DNA of 64,000 nt from Candidatus Zixiibacteriota bacterium (GTDB taxonomy: Bacteria; Zixibacteria; MSB-5A5; GN15; FEB-12). The translations under genes were made by a program, and so were the position numbers. The notes beneath the pieces are model-generated. The model searched no databases. It saw only the letters and a program-made list of their open reading frames with translations, and was not told the DNA's origin. The stretch covers positions 1 through 64,000 of the forward strand of contig JAJRSF010000051.1 in NCBI GenBank assembly GCA_024278935.1, in the 5' to 3' direction. Each line of letters opens with the position of its first letter. The stretch's first letter is position 1. This document shows positions 3,391 through 12,547 of this stretch, piece after piece.

Positions 3391-5121
3391 TTAATGCGTA
3401 ATATTGTATTCCTGCATCTTACGCCAAAGAGTCGTTCGACTCACACCAAGTTCAAAAGCAATACGACGACGATTTTTGGGATACAACCGAAGCAGACGTT
3501 CGATCTCATCTTTTCTAATTGATTCAGTACTCGATGATTCTTTTTTAAACGAATCATGACTTAAAAATATTTCTTCAGGCAGATCTTTTCGTTCGATCCG
3601 TTCATTTTTAGTTCTTAAAAAAGCAGATTCCAAAGCACCAAATAACTGACGGATATTTCCCGGCCAATGATATTGCTTCAGTACATTCATACCTCTGGTA
3701 GAAATCGCAGTGATATCTTTATTATATTTATCACGTAAATATTGCAGACGATAATCTATCAGCACAGAGAGATCACCAATTCGTTCTCTCAAAGGTGGGA
3801 TTATGATTTTAATAACATTCAATCGATAATATAAATCTGACCTAAAAATACCTTTTTCAATTAACTCCAGCAGATTTTGATTCGATGCTGCGATAATACG
3901 TACATTCACTTTTTCAAGTCTGTTTGAACCGACCGGTTCAAATTCCTGTTCTTCAATCACACGCAATAATTTTGATTGTAAAGCAGGCGACATATTTTCA
4001 ACTTCATCTAAAAAGATTGTCCCTTTGTCAGCTTTTTTAAATTTACCGGCATAGTTTAAGACTGCTCCGGTAAAAGCACCTTTAACATGTCCAAACAGTT
4101 CAGATTCAAGAAGTGATTCTGTTAAAGCTGAACAGTTAATTTTTACAAATGGTTTATCTCTTCTATGTGAAAGCCGTTGGATCGCTTTTGCTATCAACTC
4201 TTTCCCGGTACCTGTTTCACCTTTTATTAAAATCGGGGCATCGGTCGGAGCTGACTCTTCAACCAGTTCTAAAATCTCTTTCATATTATCACTTTTAGTA
4301 ATGATATGATGATATTCAAAAGCGTTCTCGGCTCCTTTGCGCAAGGCGACAGTTTCAGAAACTTTGCTAATTACACCAATGACAGATTCAACTTTACCTT
4401 TTTGATTTTTAACAACCATGATAGATTTATCATAAGGAGTCATCTCTTTACCGACCATCATACGCTGATGTGAATTGATAACATTCGTTTTATTTTTCAC
4501 AGCCCATTGCAGCGGGCAATCATCACCGCATTCGTCGGAACAAAGCACATCGGCACATTTATATCCTATTAAATCCTGTGTTTTCTTACCGGAAAGCTTC
4601 AGAAGTTTTTCATTCACCGATGTAATAACACCCTCAGGAGTAGCAGTGTAATAGCCATCGCTGATGTCATCTAAAATATTGTGGAGCCGTTCTTTTTCCA
4701 TCATCAAGGCAGCGTTGGTTTCTTCTAGAGTGCCAATATACATACCCAACTGTTTCATATTTCGATACAGTTCAAGGACTCCGATAGTCTTTCCATCTTT
4801 ATCTATTATAGGCGAGGCAGAAACACAAAAAGGACCTGTTTCATGTTTTTGACAATGTAGATTATGTTCCGAAAAATCTTCTTGATTGTTAATGATATTG
4901 CGATGCGGACAGCTTTTGTAACAATGGTCAAAACCGACAACATCGGTACATTTTTTGCCGATAAAATCTTCGGGAGTTTTCTCATAAATATCAGCGAAAC
5001 GATTATTGACATAGATAATATTAAAATCATTATCAATGGCAACCAAACCGTCATAAATAGATTCGGCAATATTATCTAAGACATGTTGATTCTTTTTTAT
5101 CTCGTTCAACTTATCTTCCAC
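3391..5121 (-). CDS. Sigma-54-dependent transcriptional activator with two Cys-rich PAS domains
   Basis: A bacterial enhancer-binding protein of 576 aa. Two PAS domains (about residues 10-125 and 145-260) precede a sigma-54 AAA+ domain with Walker A GETGTGKE, the sigma-54-contacting GAFTGA loop and a FLDEVENM Walker B. A Fis-type helix-turn-helix closes the protein (GVSRTTLWRKMQEY). Each PAS carries a cysteine cluster: C58, C67, C71 (also C90, C99) in the first and C189, C194, C198, C202 in the second, suggesting a redox, metal or sulfur sensor (inference). The start is a GTG preceded by AAAGGG; the gene is 12 bases downstream of the TorD-type gene, making it the last gene of the Mo-enzyme operon. 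It probably activates the sigma-54 promoter at 11535-11551, hence its own transcription. Confidence 0.93.
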   Translation of the reverse strand: MEDKLNEIKKNQHVLDNIAESIYDGLVAIDNDFNIIYVNNRFADIYEKTPEDFIGKKCTDVVGFDHCYKSCPHRNIINNQEDFSEHNLHCQKHETGPFCVSASPIIDKDGKTIGVLELYRNMKQLGMYIGTLEETNAALMMEKERLHNILDDISDGYYTATPEGVITSVNEKLLKLSGKKTQDLIGYKCADVLCSDECGDDCPLQWAVKNKTNVINSHQRMMVGKEMTPYDKSIMVVKNQKGKVESVIGVISKVSETVALRKGAENAFEYHHIITKSDNMKEILELVEESAPTDAPILIKGETGTGKELIAKAIQRLSHRRDKPFVKINCSALTESLLESELFGHVKGAFTGAVLNYAGKFKKADKGTIFLDEVENMSPALQSKLLRVIEEQEFEPVGSNRLEKVNVRIIAASNQNLLELIEKGIFRSDLYYRLNVIKIIIPPLRERIGDLSVLIDYRLQYLRDKYNKDITAISTRGMNVLKQYHWPGNIRQLFGALESAFLRTKNERIERKDLPEEIFLSHDSFKKESSSTESIRKDEIERLLRLYPKNRRRIAFELGVSRTTLWRKMQEYNITH

Positions 5122-5133
5122 GGGAAAAACCCT

Positions 5134-5652
5134 TTATATTTCTTCTATCTGAACCATTGTTTCTTGTACAAGTGATGCCACTCGCAAAGCGATCATATCA
5201 TCGCTTCGTTTAATAATAGCATCGGTAAAGATATTATACCACGGTTTTAGAAAAATGGTATAAAAATCTTTTGCTCCGGCTATATCATCACAAGATAATT
5301 TAAAAAGCAAAAATTCAAACAGGACTTTTAAATGATCGGGCGGATAATTTGTCGCCACTTTTTTATCCTTGGCATAATAAGAAATCAGAGCATCAAGATA
5401 ATTTTCTTTCTCTCTCTTATCCGGTAAATTCTCGGTAGCCAAAGGAAAAACAGGTCGTGCGTTTTGGGAATTCACAAATAAATCCGTAATCATGACCATC
5501 GTTGCATCTGCAAAAGAAAATTCAGATTCAGACTCTTCTATCTTTCCAAGAGGAGTTTCTCCGAGCCGAATTTGTTCAATCAATTCGGCATCCGGCTCAG
5601 AGAAAAATTTTGTTAAAAACTCAAGTTTAATTTGTAATTCAGTTGTTGCCAT
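5134..5652 (-). CDS. TorD/DmsD-family Mo-enzyme maturation chaperone
   Basis: A cytoplasmic all-helical protein of 172 aa, expected to bind the Tat signal of the molybdopterin subunit and hold it until cofactor insertion. Recognition rests on size, the TorD-like stretch ENYLDALISYYAKD...NYPPDHLKVLFEFLLFKLS, and the place in the operon; the sequence is divergent. A start at 5718 would overlap the membrane-anchor gene by 65 bases. I prefer the ATG at 5652 (MATTELQ) because it follows the anchor's TAA by one base and has GGAG eight bases upstream. Confidence 0.8.
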   Translation of the reverse strand: MATTELQIKLEFLTKFFSEPDAELIEQIRLGETPLGKIEESESEFSFADATMVMITDLFVNSQNARPVFPLATENLPDKREKENYLDALISYYAKDKKVATNYPPDHLKVLFEFLLFKLSCDDIAGAKDFYTIFLKPWYNIFTDAIIKRSDDMIALRVASLVQETMVQIEEI

Positions 5653-5653
5653 T

Positions 5654-6604
5654 TTATGCTCCAAATGATGATGCTTGTCCTGCATATACAAATATATATC
5701 GTAATAAAAATCCACCAACTAAAACTAATATAGCACTCAAATAACCAAAAAACTTAATATGAGAGCTTTTCTGCTTTCGAGCGATTTCCGGTATCAAATC
5801 TATAGTCTCAAGAATCAATGGAATCACTAACCCTATCAAAACAAACCCGTACCAGAAAATATTTGTATACTCACCACCTAAAATCAGATCAAGCGATGCT
5901 GACTGACTTGCGGTAGAAATTGAATTATGCAATATATACGGAATAAGAATAAACATTTCAAAAATAATTAATATAACATCGGCAGAATAAAGTAATTTTC
6001 TTTCGCGATGAAAATCTTCTTTTGATGTGTTTTTTGACATCCAGTTTGAAGCAAACAACATAACCGCAGTCGCTGTTGAAAGAGCCGACACCAAAAAGAG
6101 CATCGCCACCATCGGCGTATTCCAAAACGGACGAGCAGGAATTGCTCCCAGTAAAACACCGGTATAAATACCAACTGCTATACCGGTTGGAAAACCGATA
6201 GCACCTAAAATTCCACGAATCTTCACACGACTTTTAGGAATTGATAACTTGAATTTCCCAAGTTTTAGTGTAGAATATTTTTCAGGTAACCAGAGTATCG
6301 CATAGAGTGATGCTATTATCGAGAAAAACATTAACAACCAACTCCCGATAGACATTGGTGAAGTCCATTGGATGGTGGTAAATAATCTCCAAAAATGTAA
6401 AGGTCTATCTAAATCAATCAGTAATAAAAACAGTCCAATAAATAATGGAAATGGTGCAAAATATGCTCCAAAGGCTGCGAGCTTATGAAGCTTCGGATCT
6501 CTCAAATATGCTAAAAATGCTGAGAGAATAAAAACACCGGCAGAAAGTCCACCGAAGTAAAGATATAAAACAACGGGCATACCCCATTCAACTTCGTGCA
6601 TCAT
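5654..6604 (-). CDS. NrfD/PsrC-family membrane anchor subunit
   Basis: An integral inner-membrane protein of 316 aa with about eight hydrophobic helices. In polysulfide, thiosulfate or tetrathionate reductase-like complexes this subunit binds quinol and passes electrons to the ferredoxin subunit. Typical features are the first-helix region (VVLYLYFGGLSAGVFILSAF) and LLLIDLDRPLHFWRLFTT...SPMSIGSWLL, a strongly conserved NrfD signature. The gene follows the ferredoxin gene by a few bases with AGGAG just upstream. Two consecutive ATG codons are available (6604 and 6601); the second has the better spacing from the ribosome site. Confidence 0.92.
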   Translation of the reverse strand: MMHEVEWGMPVVLYLYFGGLSAGVFILSAFLAYLRDPKLHKLAAFGAYFAPFPLFIGLFLLLIDLDRPLHFWRLFTTIQWTSPMSIGSWLLMFFSIIASLYAILWLPEKYSTLKLGKFKLSIPKSRVKIRGILGAIGFPTGIAVGIYTGVLLGAIPARPFWNTPMVAMLFLVSALSTATAVMLFASNWMSKNTSKEDFHRERKLLYSADVILIIFEMFILIPYILHNSISTASQSASLDLILGGEYTNIFWYGFVLIGLVIPLILETIDLIPEIARKQKSSHIKFFGYLSAILVLVGGFLLRYIFVYAGQASSFGA

Positions 6605-6610
6605 ATGCTC

Positions 6611-7165
6611 CTAATCTATAATGTAATATATCCGAGGCTTTGTTCCGGTCTCTGGATATTTTACTTCAGTTCTATGGGTTGCGATTTTCAGAGAAATTTC
6701 AGACTTTGGATCATTAAGATCCCCAAAGGTCCGAACCTTACCGGGACAAGTTTCTAAACAGGCTGGCTCTCTACCTTGATAAATACGTTGAGTACAATAA
6801 GTACATTTGTCTACAATACCACGCTCTTTGTCAACATACCTGGCATCGTATGGACAAGCCATCATACAGAAACGACAGCCGATACATTTATTATAATCAA
6901 TTAATACAATTCCATCATCGTTCACAAATGTAGCACCGGTTGGGCATACTCGTTCACAATGCGGATTATCACAATGATTACATTGGTTCGGAGTAAAGTC
7001 AATTCCCAAATTCGGATATGTACCACGCACTTCGGATTCATCGATCCAATTACGATGTTTATGAAGTGGTACATTATTTTCTGCCTGACATGCAATCATA
7101 CATGCTTTACAGTTTATACATCTCGACTGCTCTATGAGCATGCCGTATTTCTTTTCCTGACTCAT
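6611..7165 (-). CDS. Four-cluster [4Fe-4S] electron-transfer subunit (PsrB/DmsB/NrfC type)
   Basis: A 184-aa iron-sulfur protein carrying electrons between the membrane anchor and the catalytic subunit. Four cysteine groups are visible: CINCKACMIACQ, CNHCDNPHCERVCP, CIGCRFCMMACPYDARY and CTYCTQRIYQGREPACLETCP. This is the standard arrangement for four cubane clusters in CISM-type oxidoreductases. There is no signal peptide, consistent with export as a passenger with the Tat-tagged catalytic subunit (established for the family). Its ATG overlaps the stop of the catalytic gene by four bases (ATGA), indicating translational coupling. Confidence 0.95.
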   Translation of the reverse strand: MSQEKKYGMLIEQSRCINCKACMIACQAENNVPLHKHRNWIDESEVRGTYPNLGIDFTPNQCNHCDNPHCERVCPTGATFVNDDGIVLIDYNKCIGCRFCMMACPYDARYVDKERGIVDKCTYCTQRIYQGREPACLETCPGKVRTFGDLNDPKSEISLKIATHRTEVKYPETGTKPRIYYIID

Positions 7166-9420
7166 CCTGTTATACCTCCGCTTTTAACTCTCGATTTCCG
7201 TCTGTCGCCCTGGACATCCTCAGTATGGAGTGTTCTTTTAGGAATTATCTGCACGAAATCTTCATGCATGGCAGCATTGCCGGTTATTTTATCATAGTAA
7301 GAACCAAGCAGATCAGAACCGCGAGCTCCTTTATTGTAAGCTATACTCAAACCTTTTGAGGTATGACCAAATCCATGCGGCATACAAATAACATCGGCAT
7401 GCACTCTGTCAGTTATATAAACAGGAAGTTCAACTTCACCATATGGTGAACGAAGAATAACAATCTCACCCTGCACTATACCATGTTTCTCAGCAGCTAT
7501 TGGATTGACATGTGCCATCGCATGCATACCAACCGCCATCAGCCATTCATTATTTTGAAGTGACGAATGAGTATAGTTGGCACAACGAGCAGTTAATAAA
7601 ATATAACTTCCGCTTGGAATATTTTTTGGTCGTTTATAAATTGGTAATGGATCATATCCTTTTTCGGCATATCGTTCTGAAAATAGTTCTATCTTCCCTG
7701 TCTTTGTTCGGAATCGATATCCTTCTTTAAGGGTCTTGCCAAAGACCTTACCTTTGTCATCAGCGTAGAACCCACGACGTTTTAATTCATCCAAATCAAT
7801 CGGTAGTTCTTCAACTTGTGCTTCCAGCCATTCTTCTATTGTGAAATCAAAGTATTCACCTAAATCAAGTTTCGAGGCAAGATGTTTCATGATTTCCAAA
7901 TTAGGACGAGTCTCATACATCGGTTCGATAACTTTCTGACGAAGCGCTACAGCAGGTTCTAAACCACCAAGCGAATGAAGCGGGTCAGTGCGTTCCAAAT
8001 ATGTTGCTTCAGGAAGCATAACATCGGACTCCCAAGCAGTATCGTTTGGAATTATGTCGATAGAAACTATCAACTCCATCTTTTTCATCATCTCATAAGT
8101 CTTTTGAGAATTAGGTACTGACTGAAGCGGATTCTGTTTGTAGATCATCCATGCTTTTAAAGGATACGGGTCTTCTTTTAAGGCATGTTCACGAAGTGTC
8201 ATATAGACACCATCTCTTCTATTAGCGAGAGGGAATTCATTTTTAACATTGTCAATACGTTCTGCTTCCGGTTCATCAGGAGGGAAAATCAACATTTCGC
8301 CTAAACCGATTTTACGTGCCGGTGCGACTCCGCCTTCACGGTCCCATGCTCCGGAGATTGCGTTGACAATTGCAATCGCTCTTCTAAATTGTGTATCATT
8401 TTCAGTCCAGCTACCTCGACGTCCTGAATAAAAGACCGAACGAGGTAAACTGCTCATAAAGTCTTTACCGACTTTATAAATTGTCTCAACAGGAATACCT
8501 GTTTCATAAGCTGCCCACTCAGGCGTATACTGTTTTACATGTTCCGCAAGTTTATCAAAACCATGCGTATATTTTTCTACAAAAACTTTATCATACTTAT
8601 TTTCTTTAATCATCATATGTATCAACGCAAGAGCAAAAGCTAAATCTGTACCCGGCTTGATAGGCACCCAAAGATTTGCTTTTGATGCGGTGACAGTAAA
8701 ACGAGGATCCAAGACAACGTGATAATGACCGGAAGCTTTGCCTTCAATCATATCAACAGTGTCTGGAGTCAGTAGTGATTCGAGTCTGTTTGAGCCGGCA
8801 AAAATTACATAGTCGGCATGTTTTAAATCAAAATGTGGTACGGTTCCGAATGTATTAAACATCGCATTGTTCACAGATGCTAAACATAAAGTAGGATGAC
8901 GAACTGTATTCGGTGACCCAAATGCTTCAGCTAAACGTAAGAAATATTCTTCCTGGAATCCTTCAGTCGATGAAAACAATACTGCCTCAGGACCATGTTT
9001 TTCTTTTATTTCAGTTAATTTGTCAGCGATGTATGTAAGAGCTTCATCCCATGTTGCTCTTCTCCATTTACCTTCGCCACGTTTGCCTACACGAATCATA
9101 GGGTATTTTAAACGGTCAGGATCATAGACCGTTTGTATGCCGGCATTACCTTTGGCACATAACATCCCTTTTGATTTAGGATGGTCTGCAATTGGATCAA
9201 GTTTTCGTATAACGCCGTTGTTCACTCGGGCAATCATACCACATTTATTTACACAGAGTCCGCAGTGGGTCCGTATGTCGCCGGAAAAATTATCCGGCAG
9301 ATCTTTTATATCGGTTTCTGCAAAAGCTGAAGCAAACTTAAACTGGCTGCCTATTATTGCACCAACAACAGAGCAACTGCCTAGTTTCATAAAACTTCTG
9401 CGACCAAATTCATATTTCAT
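7162..9420 (-). CDS. Tat-exported molybdopterin oxidoreductase catalytic subunit (PsrA/PhsA-like)
   Basis: A 752-aa member of the DMSO-reductase superfamily. The N-terminus has a twin-arginine signal (GRRSFMKLG followed by a hydrophobic stretch to about residue 34). A [4Fe-4S] site follows (C53, C56, C60, C88), then the bis-MGD core; C179 in HPTLCLASV is in the position of the molybdenum ligand, as in polysulfide/thiosulfate-type reductases. The C-terminal cofactor-binding domain begins near the GSYILLTARCANYTHSSLQN stretch. Gene order (catalytic, ferredoxin, NrfD, TorD) fits a periplasmic reductase linked to menaquinol. Substrate is not determinable: polysulfide, thiosulfate, tetrathionate or arsenic oxyanions are all possible. 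The ribosome site is weak (AAGG), and a perfect inverted repeat lies upstream. Confidence 0.93.
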   Translation of the reverse strand: MKYEFGRRSFMKLGSCSVVGAIIGSQFKFASAFAETDIKDLPDNFSGDIRTHCGLCVNKCGMIARVNNGVIRKLDPIADHPKSKGMLCAKGNAGIQTVYDPDRLKYPMIRVGKRGEGKWRRATWDEALTYIADKLTEIKEKHGPEAVLFSSTEGFQEEYFLRLAEAFGSPNTVRHPTLCLASVNNAMFNTFGTVPHFDLKHADYVIFAGSNRLESLLTPDTVDMIEGKASGHYHVVLDPRFTVTASKANLWVPIKPGTDLAFALALIHMMIKENKYDKVFVEKYTHGFDKLAEHVKQYTPEWAAYETGIPVETIYKVGKDFMSSLPRSVFYSGRRGSWTENDTQFRRAIAIVNAISGAWDREGGVAPARKIGLGEMLIFPPDEPEAERIDNVKNEFPLANRRDGVYMTLREHALKEDPYPLKAWMIYKQNPLQSVPNSQKTYEMMKKMELIVSIDIIPNDTAWESDVMLPEATYLERTDPLHSLGGLEPAVALRQKVIEPMYETRPNLEIMKHLASKLDLGEYFDFTIEEWLEAQVEELPIDLDELKRRGFYADDKGKVFGKTLKEGYRFRTKTGKIELFSERYAEKGYDPLPIYKRPKNIPSGSYILLTARCANYTHSSLQNNEWLMAVGMHAMAHVNPIAAEKHGIVQGEIVILRSPYGEVELPVYITDRVHADVICMPHGFGHTSKGLSIAYNKGARGSDLLGSYYDKITGNAAMHEDFVQIIPKRTLHTEDVQGDRRKSRVKSGGITG

Positions 9421-9480: not shown

Positions 9481-11001
9481 CTAAAAGTCTAAGTCAAACA
9501 CCACATATAAGTTTGTGATTTTGTCAGGGAACGCATATCCGAGCATTGGATTGTTAGCAAGTTCAAAGTTCTCCATTGGAGCTGGAGCAATGTGCCAACC
9601 GGAGAAAGCATAGTCATAATCATATGCTTGTAAACCTACACGGATCTTAAATTTCTTTTCAATTTTTTGAATATAGTATGCTTCAATTACAGAACCTTTT
9701 GTAGCAAGTTTACTCATCGCAATGTCATCGGCACCATTTGTATAACTGAACCAATGAGCATCACCATGGTTATATTCAAGACCAAATTTACCATCAGTAG
9801 CTTTAACAGGGAAACGAGCACCAAGATAATATGCCATTCCGCTTTCAGATTCTAAAGGATTACCAAGTAACCCACCAAAACCATACTGAGATACTGCTCC
9901 AATATCAGGATCAGATTTATTATATGCTATAGAACCAAACCAACTTATATCATTAATCTCCTGCTGGAAACAGGCACCAAATAAATCCATATCGCCAAGG
10001 TTTCTTGTTGATGTAACCAGTTGTTCATTTCCATCATATGGAACCGGAAAATTACGTGTATAACCGGTAGAAATATCAGTCATGTCGATAAATCGCATAT
10101 ACCCAAGAGTCAATAAAGTCTTACCTGGTAATTGTGGAATTGGTGTTTCCGCACAACCACCGGCAACTTTAGAATCTTTAAGTTCAGATACAACTAGAGA
10201 AACTGGTTGTCCATTGACTGGATCAAATCCTGGAACATAAGATTTTTCTACTGCTCCACCGCCACCAAATCCAGATTCAAATCCTGTTCCATAACAGAAA
10301 CGGAATACAGACCCGTCAGGTAATCCAATAGTTTCATCTAGACGCATACCAATCATAATACCATCAATCTCAGCATCAATCATCAATCCACCAGGTGTAC
10401 CTTGACGAACTCTGTCTTCACGTAATTCACGTGGAGGACCATTAGTTGCTGCTTGACGACCAGCTGTAAAAAAGAATGGTGAATTTGCTGGTGAATATGT
10501 AAATGCTGCCCGCTCGACACGAAGTGCGTTGTCAGTTGGGATATTTGTTGCGTTAGCATCATAGGCTACTGTGTTTGGGAAACCGTTAAAAATTGGGACA
10601 CCGGAACCACCATATGTTTGATGCATGACCAAACGACCGGTAAAATGAAGTTGTGGTGATGGTTTCGCATCGATTTTTAAGCGAAGTTTTAGACTCCAGT
10701 TTTCAGAATTCTTTAAATCATACGCTTCGTATGGCATATAACTCATAGGATTCGTTGGGTCTCCACCTTGATACAGAAAATGTGGTTGATAGTCAAATTT
10801 AATATTATCATACTTGACTCTGAAATCACCAAAGATAGATACTTTGTTTTTAGCTGCTTTTAATTCAAGTGCATCAACACGGTCGAGTAGATCTTCGACA
10901 TCATCGGCTACTTCGTCAGCAACAGCAAGGCTGAAACTCATTAGAACTGCCAGCATTAAAATACCGACTAAAATCATTGATTTGTTAAAAAAGTTTTTCA
11001 T
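9481..11001 (-). CDS. Outer-membrane beta-barrel protein (DUF3373-like) with N-terminal coiled coil
   Basis: A 506-aa secreted protein with signal peptide (hydrophobic to about residue 28, ending SLAVADE). A short heptad-like helix (EVADDVEDLLDRVDALELKAAK) resembles the periplasmic coiled coil of trimeric porins. A series of amphipathic strands follows, rich in aromatic residues and ending in YVVFDLDF, a C-terminal aromatic typical of BamA-inserted barrels. I recall DUF3373-type barrels beside periplasmic reductases in Deltaproteobacteria; the family name is tentative. As the second gene of the sigma-54 operon it could admit the electron acceptor or anchor a cell-surface complex. Confidence 0.72.
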   Translation of the reverse strand: MKNFFNKSMILVGILMLAVLMSFSLAVADEVADDVEDLLDRVDALELKAAKNKVSIFGDFRVKYDNIKFDYQPHFLYQGGDPTNPMSYMPYEAYDLKNSENWSLKLRLKIDAKPSPQLHFTGRLVMHQTYGGSGVPIFNGFPNTVAYDANATNIPTDNALRVERAAFTYSPANSPFFFTAGRQAATNGPPRELREDRVRQGTPGGLMIDAEIDGIMIGMRLDETIGLPDGSVFRFCYGTGFESGFGGGGAVEKSYVPGFDPVNGQPVSLVVSELKDSKVAGGCAETPIPQLPGKTLLTLGYMRFIDMTDISTGYTRNFPVPYDGNEQLVTSTRNLGDMDLFGACFQQEINDISWFGSIAYNKSDPDIGAVSQYGFGGLLGNPLESESGMAYYLGARFPVKATDGKFGLEYNHGDAHWFSYTNGADDIAMSKLATKGSVIEAYYIQKIEKKFKIRVGLQAYDYDYAFSGWHIAPAPMENFELANNPMLGYAFPDKITNLYVVFDLDF

Positions 11002-11031
11002 AATACCACCTCAATAAAATTTATTGTTTAA

Positions 11032-11433
11032 TTACCCACATGTTTCCGGTTGATCTGAATCTGCAGCATGATTGATTAAAAAATGCTTAATATGAATCAG
11101 TTGTGTTGCATCAAAATCAGTTGAATATTTTGCACCTTTGTAATGTTTATCTTTTTTAAATGCTCTTTCCCACTGTTTGATAGTTTTTGACATAGGTGTT
11201 ACTTCGCCGCCTTCGCCTTTACTGCCATGACAGGATTTACATGTTTTCTTAAAGAAAAACTTACCTTTTTTGTCGCTTGGTTTAACTTCTTTTTTGACTG
11301 TTTTTGGAGTGTCGACCTTCTTGGCATCATCACCCGCAAAGACATCATTGGAAATTGCTGTCATAGCAACTAAAGCACAAACTGCTAAAGTTAGCAAAAT
11401 GACAATTGTTTTAAAATTTCTTCTTGTTTTCAT
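11032..11433 (-). CDS. Small exported monohaem c-type cytochrome
   Basis: A 133-aa protein with an N-terminal hydrophobic segment (residues about 9-27, then NDVFAGDD, a plausible signal-peptidase I site) and a single CXXCH haem site (CKSCHGSKGEGG) near the middle. The linker before the haem is Lys-rich. The distal ligand is not clear, although several Met and His residues follow. First gene of the Mo-enzyme operon, about 90 bases downstream of the sigma-54 promoter. It probably shuttles electrons to or from the periplasmic Mo enzyme (inference). Being first, it would be the most abundant product. Confidence 0.85.
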   Translation of the reverse strand: MKTRRNFKTIVILLTLAVCALVAMTAISNDVFAGDDAKKVDTPKTVKKEVKPSDKKGKFFFKKTCKSCHGSKGEGGEVTPMSKTIKQWERAFKKDKHYKGAKYSTDFDATQLIHIKHFLINHAADSDQPETCG

Positions 11434-11446
11434 GATACATTCCTTT

Positions 11447-11765
11447 TGTTACGTTTCACTATGTTACACTACTTAACTTTTTTCTCTATGTCTTTCAACA
11501 ACTTAGAATTCTTATTCATCACACATATAATAATATCAAATTCCGTGCCAATTCCCCCCAAACCTTATACGACTATGTTTCAAGCAGTTACACACTTCAT
11601 TAACGTTTCACAAGAACGGCGAAACGTTTCAAGAAATAACAAACATTTCTAATACCACCAACTCGTTATATATACATGTTTTACATGTTCCGCTGTTAGC
11701 TTTCACTAATGTTACATAATCAGCGACGTTTCATCTTTTGGAAATGTTACAACAATTATGTTTCA
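11447..11765. promoter_or_regulatory. Cluster of about ten same-orientation YGTTWCA motifs around the sigma-54 promoter
   Basis: Read on the plus strand, TGTTACA, TGTTTCA, CGTTTCA or one-base variants occur at 11447, 11452, 11462, 11576, 11586, 11604, 11625, 11710, 11727, 11745 and 11759. A GAAACGTTTC palindrome lies at 11621-11630. Eight copies fall 25-230 bases upstream of the sigma-54 promoter, where activator binding sites normally sit; three lie in the transcribed leader. The whole 451-base gap between the phoU and cytochrome genes is otherwise non-coding. Confidence 0.6.
11535..11551 (-). promoter_or_regulatory. Sigma-54 (RpoN) promoter of the Mo-enzyme operon
   Basis: On the minus strand the site reads TTGGCACGGAATTTGAT. 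It matches the -24/-12 consensus YTGGCACG-N4-TTGCW at all but one informative base, with the required ten bases between GG and the GC/GA dinucleotide. It points toward the cytochrome gene and leaves a leader of about 90 bases. The operon's last gene encodes a sigma-54 activator. Confidence 0.83.
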
Positions 11766-11800
11766 ATTTTGTTTAATTTTTATGAATTTTTAAACAAAAA

Positions 11801-11833
11801 AAGACTTAACAATTCAGATAATTGTTAAGTCTT
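11801..11833 (-). terminator. Rho-independent terminator after phoU
   Basis: Fourteen-base perfect arms (AAGACTTAACAATT at 11801-11814, complement at 11820-11833) with a five-base loop. On the minus strand the stem is followed by seven T. It ends the pst-phoU operon. Confidence 0.93.
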
Positions 11834-11884
11834 GTAGAATTTTGAGAGTAGTTATAATTTTAACGAATCAAACAGAATCGTACA

Positions 11885-12547
11885 TTATAACTCGTTCACT
11901 TTATGGCGAACGATTTCACCATCGATATTATATATTACATCTTCAGCAATATTTGTTGCATGGTCGGCAATTCGCTCAAGATTACGGGAAACATTAAGCA
12001 AGCTAATATAGAGATCAATCAGTTGCGGGTCTTCCTTGATCTTCTCTTTTAAAATCGTAATCGCGTTCTTATGCAAATCATCAATCGCATCATCATCAGC
12101 ACATACCTGTTTTGCCATAGCAGTATCATTTGTTATAAGAGAATTGATACTATTTTTCACCAAGTTAACAGTCAAGACAAGCATTTCAGAAAGATCAAAT
12201 GGAATGATAACATTATTATGCCTTTGAATACTAATAGTCCGCTTGGCAATATTCACTGCCAAATCACCAATACGTTCTAAGTCGTTGTTGATTTTTAGGA
12301 CCGCTACAACATACCGTAAATCAGTTGCAACAGGTTGATGCAGAGCTAAAATTTTCAAACACTCTTCTTCGACCTCAACTTCAAAAATATCAATCTGACG
12401 ATCATACTCTATCACTTCTTTCGCAAGAGACATGTCAAAATCACTTACTGCTTTGACAGCTTTTTGAAGATTCCCTTCAACCATAGCAGTCAGTTGCAAA
12501 ACTTTTGTCTGCAGTTTTTCTATTTCATTTATAAATCGTTTTGTCAT
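11885..12547 (-). CDS. phoU: Phosphate-signalling regulator PhoU
   Basis: A cytoplasmic protein of 220 aa made of two three-helix PhoU repeats (about residues 10-100 and 115-205). It carries the metal-binding type motif VLKINNDLERIGDLAVNIA and its second copy NVSRNLERIADHATNIAED. It links the Pst transporter to the PhoR kinase and damps the Pho response when phosphate is plentiful (family knowledge). A TTG at 12562 would extend it by five codons, but the ATG at 12547 has GGTGAAG immediately upstream and is preferred. The ribosome site overlaps the end of pstB, so the two are coupled. Confidence 0.96.
   Translation of the reverse strand: MTKRFINEIEKLQTKVLQLTAMVEGNLQKAVKAVSDFDMSLAKEVIEYDRQIDIFEVEVEEECLKILALHQPVATDLRYVVAVLKINNDLERIGDLAVNIAKRTISIQRHNNVIIPFDLSEMLVLTVNLVKNSINSLITNDTAMAKQVCADDDAIDDLHKNAITILKEKIKEDPQLIDLYISLLNVSRNLERIADHATNIAEDVIYNIDGEIVRHKVNEL

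Follow-up and report, generated by a model that had tools for sequence, protein, structure and literature searches.

The array of short repeats analysed here is best compared with a few described control regions of sigma-54-dependent genes. As passages of PMC6296734 describe it, CbrB of Pseudomonas putida acts at crcZ, crcY and PP2810 through at least three non-palindromic TGTTAC subsites at variable spacing, and its monomers are proposed there to bind first, with each subsite adding to activation. In Myxococcus xanthus, according to parts of PMC9765219, Nla28 is directed to clusters of three to five imperfect 8-bp direct repeats at sigma-54 promoters, and this clustering is proposed to increase the local concentration of the activator. 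The premise of a preliminary description of our locus, that sigma-54 activators normally bind two or three dyad sites, is incomplete in view of these two cases. At the rpoS promoter of Borrelia burgdorferi, as set out in sections of PMC3037356, BosR binds three direct-repeat sites, which lie upstream of, adjacent to and downstream of the sigma-54 promoter. For the TAACTGA repeats of Beggiatoaceae a role as sites for an RNA-binding regulator has been proposed. Excerpts of PMC4641369 deal twice with inverted repeats or palindromes, and tandem or direct repeats do not come up in them. A search of the literature for a published account of the array itself found none.

A one-directional array at a predicted sigma-54 promoter

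The array is located in a 64-kb window (by which we mean the whole stretch of DNA analysed), within an intergenic region (11434-11884) that divides phoU, named by its position beside the pst genes, from a minus-strand operon. This region contains nine exact matches to YGTTWCA, all of them on the plus strand and none on the other, which span 11452-11765 and start at 11452, 11462, 11576, 11604, 11625, 11710, 11727, 11745 and 11759. In the reading direction of the operon the motif is TGWAACR followed by T; among the operon-strand copies from three genomes (see below), T occupies the eighth position in 18 of 21, and A or T the ninth in 19 of 21. Of the nine copies, seven are found upstream of a -24/-12 sequence and two in the leader of the operon. 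The preliminary description had correctly recognized a dense array running in a single direction at a sigma-54 promoter, but the tenth of its approximately ten copies is a near-miss (AGTTACA, or TGTAACT on the operon strand, 11586-11592) that falls outside YGTTWCA, its eight upstream copies come down to seven when exact matches are counted, and its spacings of 10 and 18 depend on including the near-miss.

The -24/-12 sequence itself, TGGCACGGAATTTGA (11536-11550, minus strand), follows the pattern TGGCAC-N5-TTGC with its fixed spacing, and it aligns with the near-consensus sequences TGGCATATAATTTGT of a sister species (G002) and TGGCACACTCCTTGC of a member of another genus (G008). In the window's genome (G000) and the sister species the -12 box ends in TTGA/TTGT, departing from TTGC in the last base. 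We regard TGGCACGGAATTTGA as a predicted sigma-54 (RpoN) dependent promoter; RpoN is encoded in the genome (TIGR02395, 414.1 bits, above the cut-off).

The palindromic partner of the motif is weak (on average fewer than 3 of 5 matches by eye, compared with 1.8 for the background), and the repeated unit is thus a non-palindromic half-site rather than a dyad. The copies are spaced by 10-114 bp when all nine are considered and by 14-85 bp among the seven upstream ones, and they exhibit no helical phase, with randomly simulated positions being equally phased in 44-49% of trials. Such irregular and unphased spacing argues against a regular nucleoprotein filament, for which constant or helically phased spacing would be expected and which the preliminary description had considered; it favours a homotypic cluster in which half-sites act independently or cooperate loosely. 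The seven upstream copies have the make-up of a multi-half-site enhancer, i.e. at least three short non-palindromic sites at variable spacing upstream of the promoter. IHF-like sites gave no match to a simple pattern. Tandem duplication was rejected as the origin of the array, as nothing was found beyond a minor 11-bp tandem repeat covering just the most upstream copy.

Statistical significance and genomic distribution

Dinucleotide shuffles of the intergenic region (451 bp, 29% GC; n=5000) yielded a mean of 0.48 copies of YGTTWCA per strand, so that the earlier estimate of 0.1 was too low; the maximum was six, and nine copies were reached in none of the 5000 shuffles, which bears out the claim that the array exceeds chance. 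Since the motif had been picked after inspection, every 7-mer family having two positions of two-fold degeneracy was tested as well. A crude look-elsewhere test, which included overlapping and low-complexity families, was not significant, with some two-position-degenerate family attaining at least nine copies in 8 of 60 shuffles. When non-overlapping counts were scaled by base composition, YGTTWCA ranked first among the families of the region (p 1.8e-13); none of 150 shuffles produced an equally extreme family. The same motif family was separately ranked best by this composition-scaled test in the corresponding region of the sister species, an agreement that is only partly independent because the two sequences are homologous.

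The next densest 314-bp stretch of the window has two copies on one strand, and AT-rich segments (GC <34%) elsewhere in the examined DNA of the same genome have at most two. Same-strand triplets of the motif separated by short gaps are confined to the array in this 3.4-Mb genome (three placements), and to the orthologous array in the sister species (two placements); the genome scan proposed in the preliminary description has thus revealed no equal density elsewhere. Pairs of the motif match 17 times in the window's genome, five times within the array, compared with nine matches to a reversed control pattern, and pairs outside the array are at the control level. Across genomes, triplet matches other than the five rows representing the arrays number 17, against 15 for the reversed control; the matches fell in 15 genomes, among which those of the window and the sister species were examined individually and the other 13 only counted. 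The 260 bp upstream of each of 12 strict sigma-54-like sequences elsewhere in the window's genome contain no copy of the motif (12 of 12), with the proviso that a reversed sigma-54 pattern matches six times and part of the twelve are therefore chance matches. Altogether, the array is confirmed to be real and biologically meaningful.

Conservation in relatives

In a set of 132 genomes of the phylum, the operon, the activator gene it contains and a cluster of the motif coincide in three, namely those of the window, the sister species and the other genus. In the sister species the genes of the operon follow the same order and the motif is present eight times, always oriented as in the window (L041, 12181-12494), so the array recurs upstream of an orthologous operon, as the preliminary description would have it. 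The gene beyond the array is not phoU in this species, which indicates that the array travels with the operon. In a pairwise alignment of the two regions, 6 of the 9 sites are retained, compared with 10 of 275 background 7-mers, three are lost, and two copies of the sister species (indices 199 and 369) are without an aligned site in the window's genome.

Taken from the upstream end and read on the minus strand, half-site 1 (TGAAACA, 11759-11765) is retained, half-site 2 (TGTAACA, 11745-11751) is lost, with TGTCTCA in its place, and half-sites 3 (TGAAACG, 11727-11733) and 4 (TGTAACA, 11710-11716) are kept as TGAAACA and TGAAACG, respectively. Half-site 5 (TGAAACG, 11625-11631) is retained with the same letters, half-site 6 (TGAAACG, 11604-11610) and half-site 7 (TGAAACA, 11576-11582), the latter being closest to the promoter, are lost, and the leader half-sites 8 (TGTAACA, 11462-11468) and 9 (TGAAACG, 11452-11458), 10 bp apart, are both retained. 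Substitutions within retained sites fall at the W and R positions. Per-base identity between the two species is 73% in sites and 57% in flanks upstream (equalled by 15 of 230 circular shifts), and 93% and 72%, respectively, in the leader (9 of 119 shifts); as sites are thus only modestly more identical than their flanks, the evidence concerns preservation of the motif and not of its letters. Half-site 5 is part of TTGAAACGTTTCGC (11618-11632), a segment that includes the palindromic GAAACGTTTC and is unchanged in the sister species and almost unchanged in the other genus, where TGAAACGTATCG stands in its place; it may represent the primary site of the array.

In the representative of the other genus, the operon strand carries three upstream copies, and there are an inverted copy, which forms TGTTTCATTTGAAACA, and a copy in the leader. 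Its array is thus sparser and includes an inverted copy, implying that neither the length nor the strict orientation is general. The promoter region of this genome features an inverted near-palindrome, CAAATGTTTCATTTGAAACATTTG (L042, 2876-2899), the sole inverted pair of exact motif copies across the three promoter regions. The end of its operon that bears the activator is on a separate contig.

At E <= 1e-110, 4 of the 132 genomes have a relative of the activator, which in one case is a fragment; the gene for a DUF3373 protein is present in 3 of the 132. Two further members of the window's own genus without a close match to the reductase (G001 and G003) have no comparable cluster, the former with no triplet match and the latter with one, on a different contig. 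In G034 the reductase is 35% identical and its contig stops short of any promoter; G019 has a fragment of the activator on a contig with neither the operon nor a cluster. A 336-aa frame (L070, 10031-11041), which shares 65% identity with activator residues 185-517 and sits on a contig without the reductase operon, looks like a gene remnant. A scan beyond the phylum yielded just the sister contig and one weak stretch from Clostridia, so that conservation is established for three genomes only.

The operon and its activator

The operon is predicted to serve a sulfur-type respiration. Its genes, all on the minus strand, specify, in order, a c-type cytochrome (11032-11433; Cytochrom_C), the DUF3373 protein, by inference a porin-like outer-membrane protein (9481-11001), a PhsA-like molybdopterin oxidoreductase (7162-9420; 551.9 bits, under the equivalog cut-off of 694), a 4Fe-4S electron transfer subunit (6611-7165), an NrfD-type membrane subunit (5654-6604), a small protein without a family match, which from its position only is probably a TorD-like chaperone (5134-5718), and a 576-aa sigma-54 activator of PAS-PAS-AAA+-HTH architecture (3391-5121), the proposed reader of the array. 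A tie to the pst-phoU phosphate genes was rejected, as a terminator of phoU (11801-11833, minus strand) separates the array from the phosphate operon and the neighbour differs in the sister species.

The activator has the hallmarks of a bacterial enhancer-binding protein: an AAA+ domain (Pfam PF00158, 230 bits) with the Walker A and GAFTGA motifs, and a C-terminal Fis-type HTH (HTH_8, 24.2 bits, above its cut-off). Its identity as PrdR was rejected (324.1 bits compared with an NCBIfam equivalog cut-off of 795 bits). The closest other match to its HTH in the genome is 56% over 25 residues, i.e. there is no close copy. Cysteine clusters in both PAS domains (C58, C67, C71, C90 and C99; C189, C194, C198 and C202) are invariant in the three orthologues, which suggests a redox, metal or Fe-S sensor.

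What reads the array?

The shared operon showed no further gene for a DNA-binding protein, and the activator, as the sole regulator gene there, is thus the simplest candidate for the protein that binds the array. Considering the sequence features and the analogy with described systems, we find it likely that the array represents enhancer half-sites for this protein. Each TGWAACRT would be a half-site for its Fis-type HTH, and multiple half-sites of low to moderate affinity, all oriented alike and unevenly spaced, would collect activator protomers near the promoter at 11536-11550. There the AAA+ ring would remodel sigma-54 RNA polymerase and so switch on the cytochrome c/PhsA-like reductase/NrfD operon and, with it, the gene of the activator itself. 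The two copies downstream of the promoter count against an activator-bound enhancer; they may give downstream enhancer or autoregulatory contacts, and Jyot et al. are said to have reported in 2002 a precedent for such leader copies, FleQ sites downstream of the RpoN site. A more specific version, in which one-directional monomer half-sites flanking the promoter are read cooperatively by the cysteine-rich PAS activator, and in which ring assembly and the sharpness of the operon's switch depend on how many half-sites there are and which way they point rather than on paired dyads, is offered only as a tentative conjecture.

The preliminary description had also thought of a second regulator, and such a protein, an OmpR-type response regulator or one like BosR, could bind the direct repeats and adjust the promoter. 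A modulator would suit the presence of copies upstream and downstream of the promoter, BosR binds three sites around a sigma-54 promoter (PMC3037356, in part), and the 10-bp distance of the leader repeats is retained in the sister species. That the neighbourhoods share no second regulator gene, that the genome has no further cluster when other targets would be normal, and that most spacings (14, 17, 18, 21, 28 and 85) misfit a fixed repeat of 10-11 bp together make such a regulator rather unlikely, even though a 10-bp geometry is common for OmpR-type direct repeats. The interpretation given in the preliminary description is, overall, partly supported.

Action at the RNA level, with repeated UGWAACR sites in the leader or upstream transcript serving an RNA-binding regulator, would fit the uniform orientation of the copies with the gene and the retained leader pair beside the ribosome-binding site, and heptamer direct repeats ahead of start codons have been described before. 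We nevertheless deem it very improbable, given that the stretch from the predicted sigma-54 start back to the terminator contains seven of the nine copies, that TAACTGA repeats occur in many sets per genome and the present array once, and that no Rfam element matches in 11000-12000. A functionless artefact of base composition or duplication, for which the low GC content and the crude family counts might speak, is strongly disfavoured by the composition-scaled test, the sparseness of the motif in other AT-rich DNA, the minor extent of tandem repetition and the retention of sites in the sister species.

Comparison with known systems

If the activator indeed binds the array, TGWAACRT would be a predicted recognition sequence, with a single dedicated target, for an uncharacterized activator family of an uncultivated phylum, and the array could be used to probe whether the output of a sigma-54 activator is determined by how many half-sites there are and by their direction.

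Among the systems described (the sources cited at the outset being considered in part), that of CbrB shares with the array a sigma-54 activator, multiple short non-palindromic subsites and variable spacing, with an additive effect in the case of CbrB, and its subsite TGTTAC/GTAACA is almost YGTTWCA. However, CbrB has three main subsites, one forward and two reverse, on one helix face and assisted by IHF, an arrangement not found here, where seven upstream and two leader copies share a single orientation and come without phasing or an IHF-like match. CbrB is, moreover, a two-component regulator, whereas the 576-aa activator has two PAS domains. The Nla28 sites are similar as clusters of direct repeats with variable spacers upstream of sigma-54 promoters, but their consensus is CT(C/G)CG(C/G)AG and their regulon comprises many promoters, whereas the present array was found at a single promoter in each genome. 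BosR provides a parallel in having direct-repeat sites upstream of, next to and downstream of its sigma-54 promoter; it is, however, a second regulator, discussed in relation to Fur/Per boxes, with a different repeat, and no such gene is linked to the array. The control region described here is thus of a type already known, with an array that exceeds the cases of CbrB and Nla28 cited here in length and in uniformity of direction.
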